From contig JACPYA010000055.1 in assembly GCA_016196295.1 (NCBI GenBank), positions 1 through 32,963 of the forward strand: 32,963 nucleotides of DNA, read 5' to 3'. This document shows, piece by piece, positions 8,770 to 19,460 of the stretch (the stretch's first letter is position 1; each line of letters starts with the position of its first letter). The notes below the pieces were generated by a model that was given only the letters and a program-made list of their open reading frames with translations, ran no database searches and was not told where the DNA came from. The position numbers and the translations under genes are program-made. Origin of the DNA: Candidatus Peregrinibacteria bacterium (GTDB taxonomy: Bacteria > Patescibacteriota > Gracilibacteria > Peribacterales > Peribacteraceae).

Positions 8770-9315
8770 TTACGAGCGTCCTATCAGACTCAAAAATTCT
8801 TCTCTCGTGCGTTGGTCCTTCTTAAAGAGCCCCTTCACATGACTCGTGACGGCAAGGCTATGTTGTTTCTCCACCCCTCGCATCATCATGCAGAGGTGAT
8901 GTGCTTCAATGACGACGCCGATGCCCTTGGGCTTCAGCACTTTCTGCAGTGCCTCGCAGATCTGTTCTCCCATGCGTTCTTGCACCTGGAGCCTGCGCGC
9001 GAACATCTCGACGATCCGCGCGATCTTGCTGAGGCCGATCACGGACTTGTCCGGCACGTAGCCGACGTGCACCTTGCCGATGAAGGGGAGCAGGTGGTGC
9101 TCGCAGAGGCTGTAACACTCGATGTCCTTCACGATCACCATGCCCTCCGTGTCCGCCGGGTAGATCGCGCCGTTCACGATCTCCTCCAGGTCTTGGTCGT
9201 ATCCGGATGTCAGAAACTTCATCGCTTCCATCGCGCGTTCCGGGGTTTTACGCAGTCCTGGACGCTTCGGGTCCTCGCCGATGAGTTTCAGGAGCTGTTC
9301 GTAGAGATCTTTCAT
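8770..9315 (-). CDS. folE: GTP cyclohydrolase I
   Basis: [69 protein letters not shown] motifs. Confidence 0.96.
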
Positions 9316-9344
9316 GGGCAGTTCACTATACCCGATTCTGCACT

Positions 9345-10313
9345 TCAGCGCATCCAGGCATAGGGTTTCGGTTTCTCCTGTCGCACGAGGACGTCGGACC
9401 CGATGCGGATGATGCCTGGCACATCGACGAGGAAATTTTCTCCCACAACGCCCTCACCTTTGCCATTGGGATACACATTTGTGATGATTTTGAGTGCTTT
9501 TTTGCGCGAGCGCGTACCTTTCTTCTGATCAACGATCGTCATTTTGCACCGTGGACTGGGGCCCACGCCGAGCAACTCGGCATCATCAATTTGAATCCGA
9601 TCCATGCCATATTCGGCAAATTTTCCTCCTCCCCGAAATACGAGATTGGGACGGACATCGGAGACCTCCAGGGGTTCATCGCCTTCTGCACGCATGTGCG
9701 CTGCGAGATCCTCTTCCACAGTTTCTGCAGAGACCCCGAGCGCTGCGGAACCATCTGCGAGACTCGCGTTCTGCCCCGTTCTGTGCCACGCATGTTTGCC
9801 GTAGGCGCGCTCGTCTTCGTGGACGAGGAGGCAATCTTGTCCCAAATACGAAGTGAACCAAGCGGAAGCCTCTGGAGCGTCGGCAATGACAGTGGCGGTG
9901 TCCTTCTTCCCCACTTTCGTCTCAAGTGGGAGGCCCTCCGGCTTCTGCAAAGGAATTTCCAGTTCCGGCATGTGCGGCGCATTCAACACGAGCATGCCGT
10001 TGCGAATGGCCGTTTGCACGAGCGCAAGGATCTCACATCCATTGTCTCGCTGCGTGAGCATCTTGAGATCATCTGTTCGAACGAGCATTCTCCTTCGATC
10101 GTATGCGAGCCCCTTCGGTGTCATCATAACTTGTTGGCCGCGCTTGTCGAAGACTTGGCCCGCGCACGATTTGACATGATAAATGATCGCGGCAACCAAC
10201 GTGATGCGTCTATGTTCGCGCTCCTCGGATCCATGGTCTTTGTCCGGAAGTGTCCTGGGGCGATGGAGGATGGAGGATGAAGGCATGAGGCGCAGAAGGT
10301 TAAAGGATGACAT
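9345..10313 (-). CDS. MOSC-domain protein (MOSC N-terminal beta-barrel + MOSC); exact start uncertain
   Basis: [56 protein letters not shown] resemble the mARC/YcbX family. Confidence 0.8.
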
Positions 10314-10785
10314 TTGTTTTGTGAATAGGTTCAGCGGAGGCCCCCCGAAGGAGCTCTCGAAATGAAGTATTGCCTCCAGGAAGAGGTTTCACGGGATCCA
10401 TCAATTCGACGAGCGGCTCCAGGACAAACCGTCTCTCATGCATCCGCGGATGGGGTATCGTGAGGGTTTCGGTCTGAAGAATGAGATCGTCGTAGAGGAG
10501 CACGTCGAGATCGATCGTGCGGGGGCCGAAGCGGTAGGGCGGATTCTTCTGAAGCGAGTGCTCGATGACGTCCAGGACGGCTTTCACTTCCTGCGGCCTC
10601 AAGTCCGTTCCGATCTTCGCGACGGCATTCAGGAAATCCGGCTGCGTCTCTACTTCGGCGGCCTTGGAGCGGTAGACGGAAGAGAATTGGATTTTCGGGA
10701 ATGTCTGCCGGAGCATGGTGGCGGCCTTCCGAAGATTCACTTCGGGGTGAATGTTTGAGCCGAGAGCGAGAAAAACGGTGGCCAC
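10300..10785 (-). CDS. folK: 2-amino-4-hydroxy-6-hydroxymethyldihydropteridine pyrophosphokinase
   Basis: FLALGSNIHPEVNLRKA, YRFGPRTIDLDVLLYDD, PHPRMHERRFVLEPL motifs. Confidence 0.95.
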   Translation of the reverse strand: MATVFLALGSNIHPEVNLRKAATMLRQTFPKIQFSSVYRSKAAEVETQPDFLNAVAKIGTDLRPQEVKAVLDVIEHSLQKNPPYRFGPRTIDLDVLLYDDLILQTETLTIPHPRMHERRFVLEPLVELMDPVKPLPGGNTSFRELLRGASAEPIHKTNVIL

Positions 10786-10808
10786 GGAAGGAGTATAGGG
10801 AAGGTGAT

Positions 10809-10837
10809 TGACAACTTTTCTTTACCTCGCAATACTT
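10809..10837 (+). promoter_or_regulatory. Sigma70-like promoter in the folK-folB spacer
   Basis: TTGACA-17 bp-AATACT. Confidence 0.5.
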
Positions 10838-10878
10838 TGCGGTCGATCTTTCCCCCTCAACCCCTAAGAGGTGCCATC

Positions 10879-11184
10879 GTGGGAGCAAACCACGCGCGGA
10901 AGAACCGCATTGCGCGCCGAAAGCGCCAAGTGAAGAACCAGAGGACGTTCGGGGTCGCACGAATCGTTCAAGAAGCCTTTATGGCGGCTGTGAACGACAT
11001 CGGAAATGCACTTGTCGAGGCAGTTGCTTCACCTGTGCAGTGGAAGAGCGCTGGCGCAGCGCAACTGCGTGCGCTGCCAGCAGTGTTGGGGCCGCCACTG
11101 CAGTCCTGTACCAAACGACCGTTTGGACCCCTGAATGCCGCGATGCTCGCATGGAAACAGCCAGGCATGAGTCGTCTCGGCTGA
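10879..11184 (+). CDS. Possible small basic protein (GTG start); may instead be noncoding or a degraded gene
   Basis: In frame with ORF 10804-11184; AAGAGGTG upstream of GTG at 10879. Also many hairpins in the region. Confidence 0.3.
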   Translation: MGANHARKNRIARRKRQVKNQRTFGVARIVQEAFMAAVNDIGNALVEAVASPVQWKSAGAAQLRALPAVLGPPLQSCTKRPFGPLNAAMLAWKQPGMSRLG

Positions 11185-11199
11185 TCGACGTCTACGAGC

Positions 11200-11232
11200 G
11201 GCTTTCCCAGGGATGGGAAGGCCGCGCTTTTT
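11200..11232 (+). terminator. Intrinsic-terminator-like hairpin plus T-run
   Basis: GGCTTTCCCA-GGGA-TGGGAAGGCC (one G-T pair) then gcgcTTTTT. Confidence 0.5.
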
Positions 11233-11330
11233 ATGGTCGCGTGATCGCGACCTCGGATCGCAGCCACGGAGGGCTGCTCTCATTTATACAAAATTTTTGA
11301 AATAACTGGAGCGCCCTTCCAGGGGCGCGA

Positions 11331-11675
11331 TCACGGCCGCACAATTGAAATTGATACGTAATCACTGCCCGGAACCGCAAATTTTTTCACAGTCACCGTG
11401 ACAGACTGCGGTTTGTACTTCTTCTGGATCATCGCAGCGGCATCTTCGGCGAAGCGCTCGATTGTTTTCCGCTCCGTTTTTGCTATTTCTTTCAGATCCA
11501 TCGAGAGATCGAAGTAGTTGATGCTCTTTTTGACGTCGTCGGATGCGGCTGCAGCCTTGGCATTGAGTTGCATCTCGACCGAGATGAGCAGACGCTGCTC
11601 CGTTTTTCGTTCCAGCTCCGGCACGCCGATGTGGGTCCAGAGTTCTAAATCGGAAATAGCAAGAATGTCTGCCAT
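11331..11675 (-). CDS. folB: Dihydroneopterin aldolase
   Basis: DLELWTHIGVPELERKTEQRLLISVEM, INYFDLSMDLKEIAKTERKTIERFAEDAA. Confidence 0.9.
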   Translation of the reverse strand: MADILAISDLELWTHIGVPELERKTEQRLLISVEMQLNAKAAAASDDVKKSINYFDLSMDLKEIAKTERKTIERFAEDAAAMIQKKYKPQSVTVTVKKFAVPGSDYVSISIVRP

Positions 11676-11698: not shown

Positions 11699-14131
11699 TC
11701 AGACCTGCGCTGCCGGCTTCACCCCGAAGTTGCGTGGCCGCTCCGCAAGCTTGGTTTCCGCGACTCGGCGCAAGATCCAGCGCGTGACGGTGATGGCGGT
11801 AAACATCGAGAGGACCACGCCGAGGCCGAGGGTAATGGCGAAGCCGCGGACAATGGAGGTTCCCACCATGAAGAGGATGACGCAGGTGATGAGCGTCGAG
11901 ACGTTGCCATCGCGGATGGCGGGCCACGCGTGCTGGAAGCTCGTTTCAACCGCGGTCTTCACCATCTTTCCTTTGCGCAACTCTTCTTTCATGCGTTCGA
12001 ACACGAGGACGTTCGCATCGACGGCCATGCCGAGGCTGAGGATGATACCGGCCATGCCCGCGAGCGTGAGGACGATGTAGTTGCCCGAGAAGAGGAAGAG
12101 CGGGAACTTCAGGATCACGAGGAAGAGGATGGCGTAGATGAGGAGCGCGATGTTCGCGATGATTCCGAGCAGGCGGTATACCACGATCATGTAGATCATG
12201 AGGATGATGATGCCGATGAGGGCCGCGAGGAGCGAGGTGCGAAGCGCCGCGTCACCCAGGGTTGCCTCCACCGTATGCTGACCGACGAGGTGGATAGGCG
12301 CGGGGATCGCTCCGGTGTTCAAGTCTTGCGCGAGGCTCTTCGCTTCCTCGAAGTTCTGGCTGCCCGTGATGACCGCCGTTCCTCCGATAATTTCCTGCTG
12401 GACCACCGGGGCGGAGACCAGCTCGCCGCCGACGAAGATGGCGATGCGCTTATTGACGTTCTTCTTCGTGAGTTCCTGGAATATCTTGCCTCCCTCGGCA
12501 TCGAACAGGATCTGCACGACCGGGATATTCGTCACGGGGTCGAGCGTGACGGTCGCGGCGCGGAAGTGCTTGCCGTCGAGCGTCGTGTCTTTCCACCCGG
12601 TCGGGAGCAGCGAGAAGAAGAGCGCACGCAGCGTGATGGCGTCCTCCTGAGCCTGGACATCTCCTGCCTGCAAGCGGGAGAGGAGCACGTTTGCTCGTGT
12701 CTCCGCGTCGGGTCCCGTGATCGTGAGCTCGTCGTAACTTGCCGTGTCTGGAGCGATCTTCTTCGCGCCCTCCGCGAGGATGATGTGGTACCCGAAGGAT
12801 GTCTCGACCGGCTCGCTCACTTGACGCGGCTGCAGGGCGAAGGCTGCGGCTTCGAGGGCAGGCACACCCAGCGTGCCGCGGCTGAACGTGCCCAGGCGGC
12901 CACCGTTCGCCCTGGACGGTCCGTCGGACTCCGCCTGCGCGAGGGTATGGAAATCCGCCCCTTGATCGGCTCGCGCTTTCAGGGCTTTCGCCCGCTCGAG
13001 CGCCTGCTCTTTGGTCCGCGTGATGCTGGCGGCCGCTTCGCTCGCGCCTTCGTAGGCAACGAGGATGTGGCTGGCGGTCATTTGTTCGCCGCCTTTTTCG
13101 AAGAGGCGCATAAAGAGGAGACGCGCGGAGCCGTCCGGCATCGTGACGGTCTTGAAGGTTCCCGACTCCATCGTGCGCAGCACCCCCGCAATGTTGAGCT
13201 CCATTCCGCTGTCCAGCACACGATCGTCGTGGAAGGCGTACTGCACGTTCTGCTCGGTCTTGGAGAGGAGATCGAACGCCTTCGGCGCTTCGTTGATGAC
13301 GCGACCCGTCTGGAAGCGGGGGGTGACGGCCTGCGCCATCCAGATCCCGGGAATCTCCTGCGTCGTCGCGGTGCCGTCATCATTCTGGACGGGCTGCGTG
13401 ATGACTCCTTCGCGTTCCGCCACCGGCTGTCCCGGCCGGGCGTCCCACATGCTCTCGAGGCCTTTCGGCAGTTGATCGCGGAAGAACGTGCGGCTCTCGA
13501 TGTACGCCGTCCCGAGCTCGTCGCCCAGGTCTTGGCCCAGGACCTGCAGGCTATGACCGCTGGCCGTCATCCGCTTCTTCGCGCGCGCGACGCGCGCGCG
13601 GACCTGCGTCTTGTACTCATCGCTCGCCTCCGTGTGTTCCTCTTTGAATTCCAGTTGGATGGTCTTGCCCACCGTGTTGATGCATTCCTGCGTATCAACG
13701 ACGCCCGGACACTCGACGAGCAGGTGTTTCTCGCCCGCGATGAAGGATGGCGTGATGACCGCTTCGCTGACGCCGAGTGCGTTGATGCGGCGCTCGAGGA
13801 CGGTGCGAATGGCCTCCGTCAGGTTCGTTCGCTGCTCCTCGATGCTCGCGCGCTCCGCGAGGAGAGCGTCGCGCTCCGCCCCCACGCCGCCGCTGCTTTC
13901 GAGAGTCGCGATGCGTCGATTCACATCTTCCAATTGCGCTTCGATCTCTTCCTCCGAGATGCGGAAATCCAGCTGCGTGCCGCCGATGAGGTCCAGTCCG
14001 TAATGGAGCGTGGGGGACCGCAAGAAGCCCGGAGCCCATTCTTTGGCGGAATCCGGCAATGCGATGAGCAGTGCGAAGACCCCGACGACGGCGGTCAGTG
14101 CGGGCCAGAGGAGCGAACGTTTCTGAGACAT
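11699..14131 (-). CDS. secD: SecD protein-export protein with an inserted parvulin/PpiC-type PPIase domain
   Basis: SecD N-terminus (LHYGLDLIGGTQLDFRI), P1 (RINALGVSEAVI), C-terminal TM bundle (GMAVDANVLVFERMKEELRKGK). Residues ~350-456 (about 12764-13084): MTASHILVAY...GADFHTLAQAESDGPSRANGGRLGTFSRG...SEPVETSFGYHIILAEG = parvulin signature. Confidence 0.92.
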   Translation of the reverse strand: MSQKRSLLWPALTAVVGVFALLIALPDSAKEWAPGFLRSPTLHYGLDLIGGTQLDFRISEEEIEAQLEDVNRRIATLESSGGVGAERDALLAERASIEEQRTNLTEAIRTVLERRINALGVSEAVITPSFIAGEKHLLVECPGVVDTQECINTVGKTIQLEFKEEHTEASDEYKTQVRARVARAKKRMTASGHSLQVLGQDLGDELGTAYIESRTFFRDQLPKGLESMWDARPGQPVAEREGVITQPVQNDDGTATTQEIPGIWMAQAVTPRFQTGRVINEAPKAFDLLSKTEQNVQYAFHDDRVLDSGMELNIAGVLRTMESGTFKTVTMPDGSARLLFMRLFEKGGEQMTASHILVAYEGASEAAASITRTKEQALERAKALKARADQGADFHTLAQAESDGPSRANGGRLGTFSRGTLGVPALEAAAFALQPRQVSEPVETSFGYHIILAEGAKKIAPDTASYDELTITGPDAETRANVLLSRLQAGDVQAQEDAITLRALFFSLLPTGWKDTTLDGKHFRAATVTLDPVTNIPVVQILFDAEGGKIFQELTKKNVNKRIAIFVGGELVSAPVVQQEIIGGTAVITGSQNFEEAKSLAQDLNTGAIPAPIHLVGQHTVEATLGDAALRTSLLAALIGIIILMIYMIVVYRLLGIIANIALLIYAILFLVILKFPLFLFSGNYIVLTLAGMAGIILSLGMAVDANVLVFERMKEELRKGKMVKTAVETSFQHAWPAIRDGNVSTLITCVILFMVGTSIVRGFAITLGLGVVLSMFTAITVTRWILRRVAETKLAERPRNFGVKPAAQV

Positions 14132-14143
14132 CGAAAGAATGTG

Positions 14144-14824
14144 TTACGCGCCTGCGGGAACGAAGGTCACGTGCAGGCCGACATTGAGGTCGTCTGCGAA
14201 TATCTCCGCGAGGAGGAAGGCCGGAATGTCCGTGATGATGATGTTTTCTTTCACTTCATCGCTCTCCACGAGCAGCTTGCTCACGAGCCTGTCACGCACG
14301 AAGAGGCCGATGTACTTCCCGACGTTCTCATGGAAGATCTCCCCCATCACGGCGCGGCCTTCCTCCGTGAACTCCAGCATCACGCGTCCTTTCTCGGGGT
14401 CCGTATCCTTCCCCGCCGTCACCCATTCTAAGTGTTCCTCCGTGATGCCCGCTGCCGCAAACGATCCGTGGCCTTCCACCGTGATGTCTCCCGTGCCCTC
14501 GACCTCCTTCATGATACGCATCGTGAAGGGCGCAGTCAGTTGTTCGGTGATCGAATCCTTGATGGCGTCCGATGCCGTATCGACGACGAGAATCGTCTCT
14601 CCGTTTTCGATCGTGACTGCGAGATTGTCCGGGTCCTCGCCGATTGCCTCGAGCCTGCGCTGCACCACTCGCTTCGCGGCATCGACGAGCTGTGTGCGCA
14701 CCGTCGCATCCTCCGTATCAAACTCCAGGCGGTATCGCGCCTGCGTTCCGCTGCATCCCGCGAGGAGTGTCACGGCTCCCACGGAGAGAACCAAAGACCC
14801 GATGGTGAGACCGGGAGATTTCAT
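14144..14824 (-). CDS. Lipoprotein resembling the SecD periplasmic (P1) domain, without SecD transmembrane bundle
   Basis: Lipobox LLAGC; VVQRRLEAIGEDPDNLAVTIENGETILVV and LEFTEEGRAVMGEIFHENVGKYIGLFVRDRLVSKLLV align by eye with SecD P1 segments of the neighbouring gene. Confidence 0.75.
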   Translation of the reverse strand: MKSPGLTIGSLVLSVGAVTLLAGCSGTQARYRLEFDTEDATVRTQLVDAAKRVVQRRLEAIGEDPDNLAVTIENGETILVVDTASDAIKDSITEQLTAPFTMRIMKEVEGTGDITVEGHGSFAAAGITEEHLEWVTAGKDTDPEKGRVMLEFTEEGRAVMGEIFHENVGKYIGLFVRDRLVSKLLVESDEVKENIIITDIPAFLLAEIFADDLNVGLHVTFVPAGA

Positions 14825-14900
14825 CTGGCGCAGTGTACTTGAACATATTCAGCTGCACAATCCTCCATGGGAATTTAATATGTCAATATATGGAGGAAAT

Positions 14901-15011: not shown

Positions 15012-16082
15012 TTAAGGTTCTAACCAAGTTCCTGCTCTCAGCATCTTTCCATTCAAATCAACTCCTTTTAACACGCACCCCTCATCCATGATGCAATCTC
15101 GCAGAACGCAATCCTCCAGGATGCAGTCATCGAAAATCATCGTGTCTGCGAGTGTTGAATCAATGACTTTGCTGCGGGCCCCGACGACGATGCTTCCCTT
15201 GAGCGTGGATCCTTCCACCCGGCTCTCCGGATGGACGATGGGCGGGCCGGAGACGAGGAGACGATGCGCTTCCAAGTAGGCGGGGAACGAGCCGATGTCG
15301 AGCCAGGGCTCGGTGAACGTGAAACATTCCACGGGGATACCTCTTCTCAGGAACTCCTCGAAGATCCCGCCGACGTTATCTGGATGAGACTTCGCAAAAT
15401 CGAGAAGCACGCTGAGGCAGCCTTTCGGAATAATGGAACAGCCGGTGGAGACGAGGGAAGTTTTTGCCTGAGCAGGTTTTTCTTCGAAGGCGAGGACGGC
15501 CCCCACCCCCACCCCAGCCCTCCCCCGAGGGGGGAGGGGGCTGTTTATTTTTTTGTTTATTGTTTCACTCCTCCCTTCCCCCATCGGGGGAAGGGTCGGG
15601 GATGGGGGTCCCATGCCGGAAGAGGAGGCCTTCAAGATCACGGTGCCGAACACCGAGGCCTTCGCTCTATCCTTTATATCGTACGCCGCGAGCAGGGGAG
15701 TGCCGGGGCGGTAGGCCACGAGAAAATCTTCCATCGAGAAACCGAGGTAGTTGTCGCCCGTGAGGAGGAGCAGATCCTCCGTGAGTCCCGTTTCGGAGAT
15801 CCACTTGGCCGTCGCGCCGAGCGCCCCCAGCTTGTGATCATCTTTCTTCGTGTCCTCCACGACGATCTCGAGATTCGCGCGGTTCATGCCCCTTTTCCAC
15901 GTGGAAAACCCCTCCGCGAACACGGCGTTCGTGCTGACGGTCACGGGGATTTCTGCCGGGATCTTCTCGACGAGATGGGAGAGGATCGGTTTTCCCGCGA
16001 GCGGCAGCAGCGGTTTTGCGCGGTGCTCCGTCAGCGGCCAGAGCCTGGTCGCAAATCCGCCGGCAAGGATGAAGGCTTTCAT
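15012..16082 (-). CDS. Sugar nucleotidyltransferase with C-terminal left-handed beta-helix-like repeats; contains an in-frame repeat insertion
   Basis: Start MKAFILAGGFATRLWPLTEHRAKPLLPLAGKPIL at 16082; GDNYLGFS; FEEKP; hexapeptide-like C-terminus. Confidence 0.88.
   Translation of the reverse strand: MKAFILAGGFATRLWPLTEHRAKPLLPLAGKPILSHLVEKIPAEIPVTVSTNAVFAEGFSTWKRGMNRANLEIVVEDTKKDDHKLGALGATAKWISETGLTEDLLLLTGDNYLGFSMEDFLVAYRPGTPLLAAYDIKDRAKASVFGTVILKASSSGMGPPSPTLPPMGEGRSETINKKINSPLPPRGRAGVGVGAVLAFEEKPAQAKTSLVSTGCSIIPKGCLSVLLDFAKSHPDNVGGIFEEFLRRGIPVECFTFTEPWLDIGSFPAYLEAHRLLVSGPPIVHPESRVEGSTLKGSIVVGARSKVIDSTLADTMIFDDCILEDCVLRDCIMDEGCVLKGVDLNGKMLRAGTWLEP
15498..15612. repeat. REP-doublet-like (REPIN-like) palindromic element within the nucleotidyltransferase CDS
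   Basis: Two GC-rich hairpins (CCCTCCCCC-GA-GGGGGGAGGG and CCTTCCCCC-ATC-GGGGGAAGG) with inverted C-rich/G-rich ends and an A/T-rich centre. Confidence 0.75.
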
Positions 16083-16096
16083 AGGGGGAAACCTAG

Positions 16097-16186
16097 GAGA
16101 CCGGAGAGACCAATGAGACCAAGGATAATGGATCCATAGAATACACTTCTTTGGTCTCATTGGTTTCCTTGGTTTCATTGGTCTCC
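16097..16186. repeat. GAGACCAATGAGACC repeat arranged as an inverted pair in the spacer
   Basis: gagaccaatgagaccaagga (left) versus ttggtctcattggtttccttggtttcattggtctcc (right). Confidence 0.85.
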
Positions 16187-17058: not shown

Positions 17059-17967
17059 TTATTTTTGCGCCAAGCCGCCGCGCGCGCCAAACCACACGTA
17101 CGGCAGTTTCGTTGCGTCCCATGGGACTTCTCCATTCCACGTGTGGAGTCCCGCCGCGACCGAGATGTCGCTCTGGAAGACATGGGTCTCGATCCATGCG
17201 AGTTTCGCCGCAAGCACGGAATTATTCTTTGCGCGCGCACGAAAGGCTTCCTCCTGGAGCACGAAGTACGCGATGCTCTCGGCCATATCCTCAAATGGAT
17301 CCCAGGCAGCATAGCCCGTGACGAAATCCGCTTTCTTCGCGCCGCGTTTCTGCGTGTGGGCGTCCGTCCAAGAAATCGAATAGAAGGCGACGCTCGGATC
17401 ATCTTGGTAGATCACTTCCGCGCCGTCTTTGAAGCCGCTGGGTCCCGAGAGAGCCGTGCCGCGCAGGCAGCCGAGGTCGAGCATGTGCCCGAAGATCTCG
17501 TGGATCAGGAGGGCGCGAAACTCATCGGCCGGCACATTGCCGGAGACGACGACGGAGCTCTTGCCGGCGAGGCCGCGCTGCTCCGGGTTGTCGTAGCGCA
17601 CGTAGAAATTCTTCAGTTGCTTCTGGCAGGCGGCCGGGAGGAGACGGATCACTTCATCGGCGATCGCCTTGTGCTCCTCCCGGATATCCGGGTGATCGAC
17701 CACCGGCAGATAGGGAGTTTTAACAGGAGCCGCCGCAGCCATGAGGCGGGGCGTATATCGCTTCTTCGCTTTCGCCATCTTTTTTCGCGTCCGGAGAGGG
17801 GCGCCGTGCTCATGAGAATGCTCATGATGCTCAGAAACAAGGGTCTGAGAGGCCTTCTTTTCCCTTGCGGTAGAGCTCTCCTGTGATAGGCTCAGGGCAG
17901 TGGCGAGGAATGCTCCAGAAATGCCGAGAACCGCTATTTTGCCGAGGAATAAGGGGTTTCGAGGCAT
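17059..17967 (-). CDS. Secreted/anchored putative zinc metallopeptidase (HEIFGH) with a His-rich N-terminal segment
   Basis: Signal-like N-terminus MPRNPLFLGKIAVLGISGAFLATALSLS; HHEHSHEH; LLIHEIFGHMLDLG; downstream DPFEDMAESIAYF. Confidence 0.65.
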   Translation of the reverse strand: MPRNPLFLGKIAVLGISGAFLATALSLSQESSTAREKKASQTLVSEHHEHSHEHGAPLRTRKKMAKAKKRYTPRLMAAAAPVKTPYLPVVDHPDIREEHKAIADEVIRLLPAACQKQLKNFYVRYDNPEQRGLAGKSSVVVSGNVPADEFRALLIHEIFGHMLDLGCLRGTALSGPSGFKDGAEVIYQDDPSVAFYSISWTDAHTQKRGAKKADFVTGYAAWDPFEDMAESIAYFVLQEEAFRARAKNNSVLAAKLAWIETHVFQSDISVAAGLHTWNGEVPWDATKLPYVWFGARGGLAQK

Positions 17968-18008
17968 GGGGATACGAAAGTGAGTATTTATACTATATTT
18001 ACTGTAAA

Positions 18009-19460
18009 ATGTCAATATCAGCCCAAACTGTCAAACCAGGGCAGATCTACACCGTTTTGATCGAAAAACTGACCCACGGGGGGGCAGGCTTAAGCCATAT
18101 CGAAGGAATCCCCATTTTCATCCCAGACACCATTCCGGGCCAGCAGGTGGAGGTCGTCCTCACCAAAAATAAGGAGAGCTATTTCGAGGGGAAGGTGCAG
18201 AAGGTACTCCGGAAGGCGAAAGATGAAGTGATGCCCCGGTGCAGCCACTTCCACGATTGCGGCGGCTGCGTGTGGCAGAACCTGCCGTACAACAAGCAGA
18301 TCGACTATAAAGAGGACATCGTCCGCGAGACGCTCGCGCACCTCACTCCCATCCCCGAGGCCGATCGCAAAAATCTCCCGGGCAGAGTGCTGCGCATCAT
18401 CCCCAGCCCGCAGGTATTCCATTATCGCAATAAGCTCGAGATGAGCTTCGGCTACGAGACCATGCGTCACGAAGACAAAAACGGACGGCGCATTTACTTC
18501 GACGAGAATCCCACCATCGGGTTCCACCAGCCCGGCCAGTGGTCTACGGTGCTGCCCATCACCGATTGTCACCTCTACGATGAGCAGATCGGGATGCTCC
18601 TCTCGTCCGTGCGACGGTTCATGGAGGAGACGAAGCTCCCGGTCTATAATCCAAAGACGCAGAAGGGGATGCTCCGCAATCTCCTCCTTCGCCGCGGCGT
18701 CCAAACCGGCGAGCAGATGATTTGTTTCCTCGTCCATGCGCGCAAAAAAGATCTCGAGCCGCTGTTCCAGCACTTCATGCGGCACTTCGGCGGCCGCCCC
18801 AACCTCGCCTCGCTCCTCGTCGTCGAGCACATGGGCCTCAATGACAAGCCGGAGCACCCGAAGGTCCACACGCTCATCGGCAAACCCTACATCACCGAGC
18901 GCCTGTTCGACCTCCAGTTTGAGATCTCTCCCTTTTCCTTCTTCCAAACGAACACGCTCGCCGCCGAGAAGCTCTACCGCGCCGTCGGCGACGCCGCGGA
19001 CCTCTCGCTGCGCGATACGCTGCTGGATGTCTACTGCGGCATGGGGACGATCGGCCAATACCTCGCTCGTTTCTGCAACAAGGTCGTCGGCATCGAGAGC
19101 CATCCTTCCGCCATCGAAGACGCCCTCAAGAGCGCCGGCAAGAACAAGATCGGCAACATCAGCTTCTACAAAGGACGGGCGGAGCAAGTGCTGAAAGATC
19201 AGCTGAGGGCCGGTGCCAAGTATCAGTTCGACGTCATCGTCGTGGATCCTCCGCGCGCGGGGCTCCACCCGAAGGCGCTCGAAGCAGTGATCGAGCACGG
19301 TGCGAAAAAGATCGTCTACGTCTCGTGCAATACGGCAACGCTCGTGCGAGACCTGGGAGGACTCCTCAAGGGGGGCTATGAAGTTCGGACCGTGCAACCC
19401 GTGGATCTGTTCCCGCACACGGCGCACATCGAGAGCGTGACGCTGCTCCAGAAAAAGTAG
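18009..19460 (+). CDS. rlmD: RNA m5U methyltransferase, TrmA/RumA family (probably RlmD)
   Basis: TRAM-like N-terminus, [69 protein letters not shown]. Confidence 0.9.
   Translation: MSISAQTVKPGQIYTVLIEKLTHGGAGLSHIEGIPIFIPDTIPGQQVEVVLTKNKESYFEGKVQKVLRKAKDEVMPRCSHFHDCGGCVWQNLPYNKQIDYKEDIVRETLAHLTPIPEADRKNLPGRVLRIIPSPQVFHYRNKLEMSFGYETMRHEDKNGRRIYFDENPTIGFHQPGQWSTVLPITDCHLYDEQIGMLLSSVRRFMEETKLPVYNPKTQKGMLRNLLLRRGVQTGEQMICFLVHARKKDLEPLFQHFMRHFGGRPNLASLLVVEHMGLNDKPEHPKVHTLIGKPYITERLFDLQFEISPFSFFQTNTLAAEKLYRAVGDAADLSLRDTLLDVYCGMGTIGQYLARFCNKVVGIESHPSAIEDALKSAGKNKIGNISFYKGRAEQVLKDQLRAGAKYQFDVIVVDPPRAGLHPKALEAVIEHGAKKIVYVSCNTATLVRDLGGLLKGGYEVRTVQPVDLFPHTAHIESVTLLQKK

Follow-up and report, generated by a model that had tools for sequence, protein, structure and literature searches.

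How the P1 domain of SecD pulls or holds exported proteins is still under debate. P1 is critical for stimulating translocation, is thought to lie over the SecYEG exit, and changes between F and I forms (PMC9508474, PMC8669966). The locus described here, from a genome of the ultra-small Candidatus Peribacteria (CPR), raises the question of whether a copy of P1 has been taken out of SecD and kept as a lipid-anchored protein of its own, and what such a copy might do. The window (the whole stretch of DNA analysed, 32,963 nucleotides) contains the following features around secD:

11699-14131, minus strand: secD, 810 aa; its P1 is interrupted by an inserted parvulin (Rotamase) domain (Pfam, model)
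14132-14143, minus strand: gap of 12 bases from the lipoprotein stop to the secD start, with no promoter-like box (sequence)
14144-14824, minus strand: lipoprotein gene, 226-aa precursor, a stand-alone SecD-type P1 domain (ORF, homology, model)
14159-14467, minus strand: P1 head-like part, residues 120-222, the Pfam SecDF_P1_head region (Pfam, BLASTP, hhalign)
14501-14698, minus strand: P1 N-terminal (base-like) part, residues 43-108 (BLASTP segment 43-82, models)
14753-14824, minus strand: lipoprotein signal peptide, residues 1-24, with the predicted lipid-attachment Cys24 (LAGC) (sequence, Cys conservation)
14832-14860, minus strand: promoter-like TTGTGC-N17-TACACT, its end 7 bases upstream of the start codon of the lipoprotein gene (read from the sequence)

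The lipoprotein is a homologue of the whole SecD P1 domain

A preliminary description of the locus had aligned the lipoprotein with SecD by eye and called it a mimic of SecD P1. The alignment is real: BLASTP pairs lipoprotein residues 148-216 with residues 539-607 of its own SecD (E=2e-7, 35% identity), and a second, colinear segment pairs residues 43-82 with SecD 101-140 (E=0.004). The likeness to P1 holds, and the word "mimic" should read "homologue". The Pfam model SecDF_P1_head matches the window lipoprotein alone at E=0.0012, under the curated cut-off, and matches 33 of 42 members of the lipoprotein family, the best at 3.9e-9. Profile searches, proposed earlier as a check, recover SecD P1. 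The lipoprotein profile against the SecD profile in hhalign gives a probability of 98.2 (E=3.4e-14), and the best PDB sequence match of the family profile is 3aqo, the isolated P1 of Thermus SecDF (E=7e-6). The parvulin-free SecDs of other CPR (~430-550 aa) are matched in a single stretch covering positions ~20-212 of 221, with E of about 1e-17 to 1e-19 for this whole-P1 match. The lipoprotein is a full-length P1 homologue, the whole domain rather than a fragment.

In the lipoprotein Pfam gave no match to SecD_SecF_C (the RND-type transmembrane domain) at E<10, and the model has no transmembrane bundle after Cys24. The Sec_GG motif (PF07549) has no match in the lipoprotein and is absent from the family alignment, and neither the Rotamase (PPIC) domain nor YajC (PF02699) was found by Pfam. 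An LpoB-type PBP activator (TIGR02722) was rejected at 13.4 bits (E=0.058) against a curated cut-off of 110.55 bits.

The AlphaFold2 model of the lipoprotein has a mean pLDDT of 91.9, and at E<0.001 it matches ten PDB chains and no others, every one a SecD or SecDF. The best structural match is the isolated P1 3aqo (E=5.3e-11), covered over its full length. Whole-chain TM-scores to solved P1 structures are ~0.5 with an rmsd near 8.6 Å, so the two P1 subdomains appear to be differently arranged in the lipoprotein. In SecD, Pfam places SecD_1st at 108-165, Rotamase at 355-453, SecDF_P1_head at 514-611 and SecD_SecF_C at 618-789. The modest quality of the SecD model (pLDDT 77.6) limited our comparison of the two models to secondary structure. 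The first part of P1 in SecD runs beta 51-58, alpha 85-118, beta 125-131, beta 134-142, alpha 147-154 and beta 160-165; the chain resumes after the insertion with beta 513-519, 523-530 and 537-543, alpha 545-557 and beta 562-567, and P1 ends with beta 570-573, beta 585-588, alpha 594-607 and beta 613-620. With the insertion removed, the lipoprotein model repeats this order element for element, and its residues 43-108 follow the order of SecD 85-165. The lipoprotein has neither TM1 nor the parvulin insertion, and it also lacks a long helical hairpin and all SecD parts beyond P1. Its signal peptide stands in place of TM1, the chain stops where SecD would go into TM2, and the SecD motifs adjoining TM2 (SAP, GAIPAP) are lost.

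The lipoprotein is predicted to be anchored at the outer face of the cytoplasmic membrane

The lipobox (VTLLAGC) and the lack of further transmembrane helices noted earlier are both borne out. The signal peptide is a textbook lipoprotein signal with the lipobox cysteine at residue 24, and in the model a single helix (12-24) runs to this cysteine and is followed by a globular alpha/beta protein. The cysteine is invariant, lying 16-24 residues after the chosen start in each of 46 relatives, and all 46 have the charged n-region, hydrophobic stretch and lipobox by which bacterial lipoproteins are recognized. Both Lgt and LspA (signal peptidase II) are encoded in the source genome. The protein is predicted to be processed by Lgt and LspA and lipid-anchored, the lipidation itself being what we infer from this signal. 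The preliminary description had called it surface-tethered; the tether to the membrane stands, and its place would be better given as the outer face of the cytoplasmic membrane. Separately, one relative carries a broken lipoprotein frame (L023, genome G047) with one TGA and two TAA codons within the match, a sign either of decay or of a frameshift in the assembly.

The lipoprotein gene is linked to secD and probably heads its operon

The distance to secD, first put at about a dozen bases, is exactly 12 (14132-14143). In the loci examined, the lipoprotein gene lies directly upstream of secD on the same strand wherever both share a contig, with a spacing of mostly 2-33 bases and 4-base overlaps in two genomes; the linkage is kept in relatives, which the preliminary description had named as a point to check. 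The wider order RlmD-like, 17059 ORF, CoA_binding_3 protein, nucleotidyltransferase, lipoprotein, secD was found in 20 of 20 neighbourhoods.

Several features of this neighbourhood can be recorded in their own right. The 318-aa protein at 17059-18015 has no Pfam match, and its position upstream of sugar-modification genes is kept in all 20 neighbourhoods. Just downstream of secD (8770-11675) lies a cluster encoding FolE, a MOSC-domain protein, FolK (HPPK) and FolB, and these pterin genes are linked in many, not all, relatives. The nucleotidyltransferase ORF (15012-16178) holds an apparent in-frame insertion at 15500-15612, a repeat-like stretch with G+C-rich ends that is partially matched at 18 other places in the genome.

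In 38 of 46 cases a TANACT box lies no more than 25 nt from the lipoprotein start, usually 7-9 bases before the ATG, and in the relatives' upstream regions a TTGC often lies ~17 bases further up. The same box precedes the secD start in 2 of 43 cases, and was seen at 20 of 245 background long ORFs. In genome G039, which has no lipoprotein, a TAAACT is found before secD itself, at -13 and 7 bases before the ATG. Since the box precedes the lipoprotein gene and not secD, and precedes secD where the lipoprotein is absent, the two genes probably form an operon that begins with the lipoprotein gene. It looks like an added first gene, placed between secD and its promoter. The predicted leader of the shared transcript looks very short or absent, and the conserved TTGC...TACACT box, so close to the start codon at 7-9 bases (14832-14860 in the window; L032-L061), suggests short-leader or leaderless transcripts in Peribacteria.

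The lipoprotein is, as far as searched, restricted to one family of Peribacteria

We found the lipoprotein in 70 of the 74 genomes of the source genome's family; the relatives carry the names Candidatus Peribacteria, Peribacterales or Peregrinibacteria. Three of the four genomes without it have incomplete secD loci: the contig ends inside secD in G001, and the assemblies of G014 and G022 contain no full secD, with a SecF-like match only. G039 is the only one of the 74 with an intact secD yet no lipoprotein. Outside the family we searched overlapping sets of 359 genomes of the class and 384 of the phylum. Among the matches listed from these ~600 other genomes no stand-alone P1 was found, every match being a long SecD frame of at least 391 aa. 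A 156-aa frame in G078 was rejected as a stand-alone copy, because it is a full SecD when read under genetic code 25. One family peptide pattern searched against 85,488 species genomes gave 42 loci, 41 of them such lipoproteins and one a SecD itself. One locus (L100) is in a MAG titled Kiritimatiellales, which is probably a naming or binning matter. As far as searched, the lipoprotein is restricted to one Peribacteria family.

In the open-access literature, which leaves out most subscription journals, we found no description of a lipoprotein made of a stand-alone SecD P1. The protein appears to be an undescribed, putative accessory of the protein-export machine.

The lipoprotein arose once and evolves faster than SecD P1

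All lipoproteins group in a single clade in P1 trees (100/100), the stem of which is very long (~6 substitutions per site), and the single origin of the family is firm. Rooting this clade in a named SecD branch was attempted and rejected, as trees conflict between a place inside the family SecDs and one among other class SecDs; placement outside all class SecDs is not rejected either (p-AU 0.26). The lipoprotein shares FVxG and D[LV]NxG with class-type SecDs, where other CPR SecDs have FLDG and LN[AS]GALP, suggesting that the donor lay within the class. A tree of full-length SecDs places G039 as sister to the lipoprotein-bearing members as a whole (SH-aLRT 86), which fits one gain after the G039 split; G039 may also have lost the gene once.

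Mean pairwise identity among lipoproteins is 26% in the N-terminal part and 40% in the head part, compared with 85% and 76% for the SecD equivalents in the same genome pairs. Evolution is much faster in the lipoprotein than in the P1 of SecD, so the lipoprotein need not bind the same partners. The head signature, F..EG...F..N.GK.IGLFVRg.LVS ... IP...A..FADDVNVG.HVTF, is partly common to SecD and partly its own, with FADDVNVG specific to the lipoprotein. Within the family, SecD is best conserved in its P1. We rejected this conservation as the sign of a partner, since the same excess is seen against G039, which is without the lipoprotein.

The parvulin insertion in SecD occurs without the lipoprotein

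The preliminary description had joined the lipoprotein and SecD-parvulin into a two-component post-translocational folding machine. We scanned nine SecDs from other families of the class and found a clear Rotamase domain in six (L063, L065, L067, L068, L070, L071), a borderline Rotamase_2 in L069, and none in L062 and L064. No stand-alone P1 was seen for any of these nine, the parvulin-bearing ones included, and the SecD of G039 likewise carries the parvulin domain where the lipoprotein is absent. The insertion is more widespread than the lipoprotein, so the two features do not go together, and a tie between them was rejected. With parvulin occurring without the lipoprotein, and the lipoprotein itself having no rotamase domain, the folding machine is not specifically supported. 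We found no paper describing a SecD with parvulin inside P1. In several sister families (L065, L067, L068 and other ~1050-aa class loci) the SecD and SecF domains are apparently fused, with the parvulin insertion; in the source genome SecF is present on a contig other than the window.

Possible roles of a separate P1 domain

The role that we favour, and hold to be reasonably likely, is that of a lipid-anchored paralogue of the whole P1 domain serving as an accessory module beside SecDF at the translocon exit. For a lipid-tethered P1 copy co-expressed with SecD, the simplest role would be that of an accessory P1 at the same place. We computed its homology, architecture, anchoring signal, co-inheritance and promoter arrangement, and from these we infer lipidation, a site next to the translocon, contact with SecDF and the holding of cargo. 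Once processed by Lgt and LspA, the lipoprotein would sit beside the translocon at the outer face of the cytoplasmic membrane; there it could form an extra P1 module with SecDF and hold or hand over the emerging polypeptide; alternatively, it may pack against SecD P1 or SecF P4. The lipoprotein cannot itself be a motor, as it has no transmembrane domain, and the proton-driven movement would be done by SecD's own parvulin-bearing P1. A stronger form, possible if rather doubtful, is that SecDF in this family has an obligate lipid-anchored second P1 that docks on SecD/SecF and holds cargo, while the P1 of SecD carries the parvulin. If true, it would be a motor with substrate grip and proton-driven movement split onto two chains.

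The homology and operon evidence would also suit a general lipid-anchored holdase or chaperone with a P1 fold, acting on released clients without contact to SecDF, the operon then reflecting co-regulation with export. Fast divergence of the base-like part fits a loss of SecD contacts, and Peribacteria export many very large Cys-rich proteins (PMC4736985). We nevertheless think it unlikely, because a single-copy gene with near-invariant adjacency to secD suggests stoichiometric or physical coupling. The lipoprotein might also be a regulator or decoy, pairing with SecD P1 (a P1-P1' dimer) and damping or gating the SecDF cycle. A paralogous domain kept beside its parent, and the standing of P1 as the best conserved SecD part, would be in keeping with this; the dimer is hypothetical, however, and SecD P1 shows the same pattern against G039, making regulation of this kind improbable.

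The long stem and the FADDVNVG motif could instead mark a domain that has taken on a new function outside Sec (for example, envelope binding) and lies beside secD by inheritance only. Linkage to secD in all checkable genomes bar one, across ~40 genera, and a promoter arrangement that routes secD expression through the lipoprotein gene both speak against it, and we regard it as the least probable of these readings. As an accessory P1, the lipoprotein would be a lineage-specific component of protein export in CPR, a group in which some members send out large numbers of very large surface proteins. A P1 domain copied out of the motor and kept separate family-wide is also a natural experiment on what P1 does without being moved by a transmembrane domain.

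Comparison with known systems

YajC is an accessory of SecDF whose gene lies upstream of secD in E. coli. The lipoprotein gene resembles it as a small gene directly upstream of secD; however, the YajC model does not match the lipoprotein. YajC had no match over the cut-off in any of 96 family and class genomes, whether or not they carry the lipoprotein, and a replacement of YajC by the lipoprotein was rejected, since the absence of YajC does not track the lipoprotein.

The post-translocational helpers PpiD/YfgM and PrsA are, as predicted for the lipoprotein, membrane-tethered proteins of the outer face, and PpiD/YfgM is located at the Sec translocon (PMC8669966, PMC9643414). Unlike these systems, the lipoprotein has no parvulin domain, and the parvulin of Peribacteria sits inside SecD.

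With SecD P1 itself (PF21760 SecD_1st and PF22599 SecDF_P1_head; PDB 3aqo, 3aqp) the lipoprotein shares sequence homology and the order of secondary structure over the whole of P1. It differs in being a separate protein without TM1-6, without a GG motif match and without the GALP-type exit to TM2, and in its much faster evolution.
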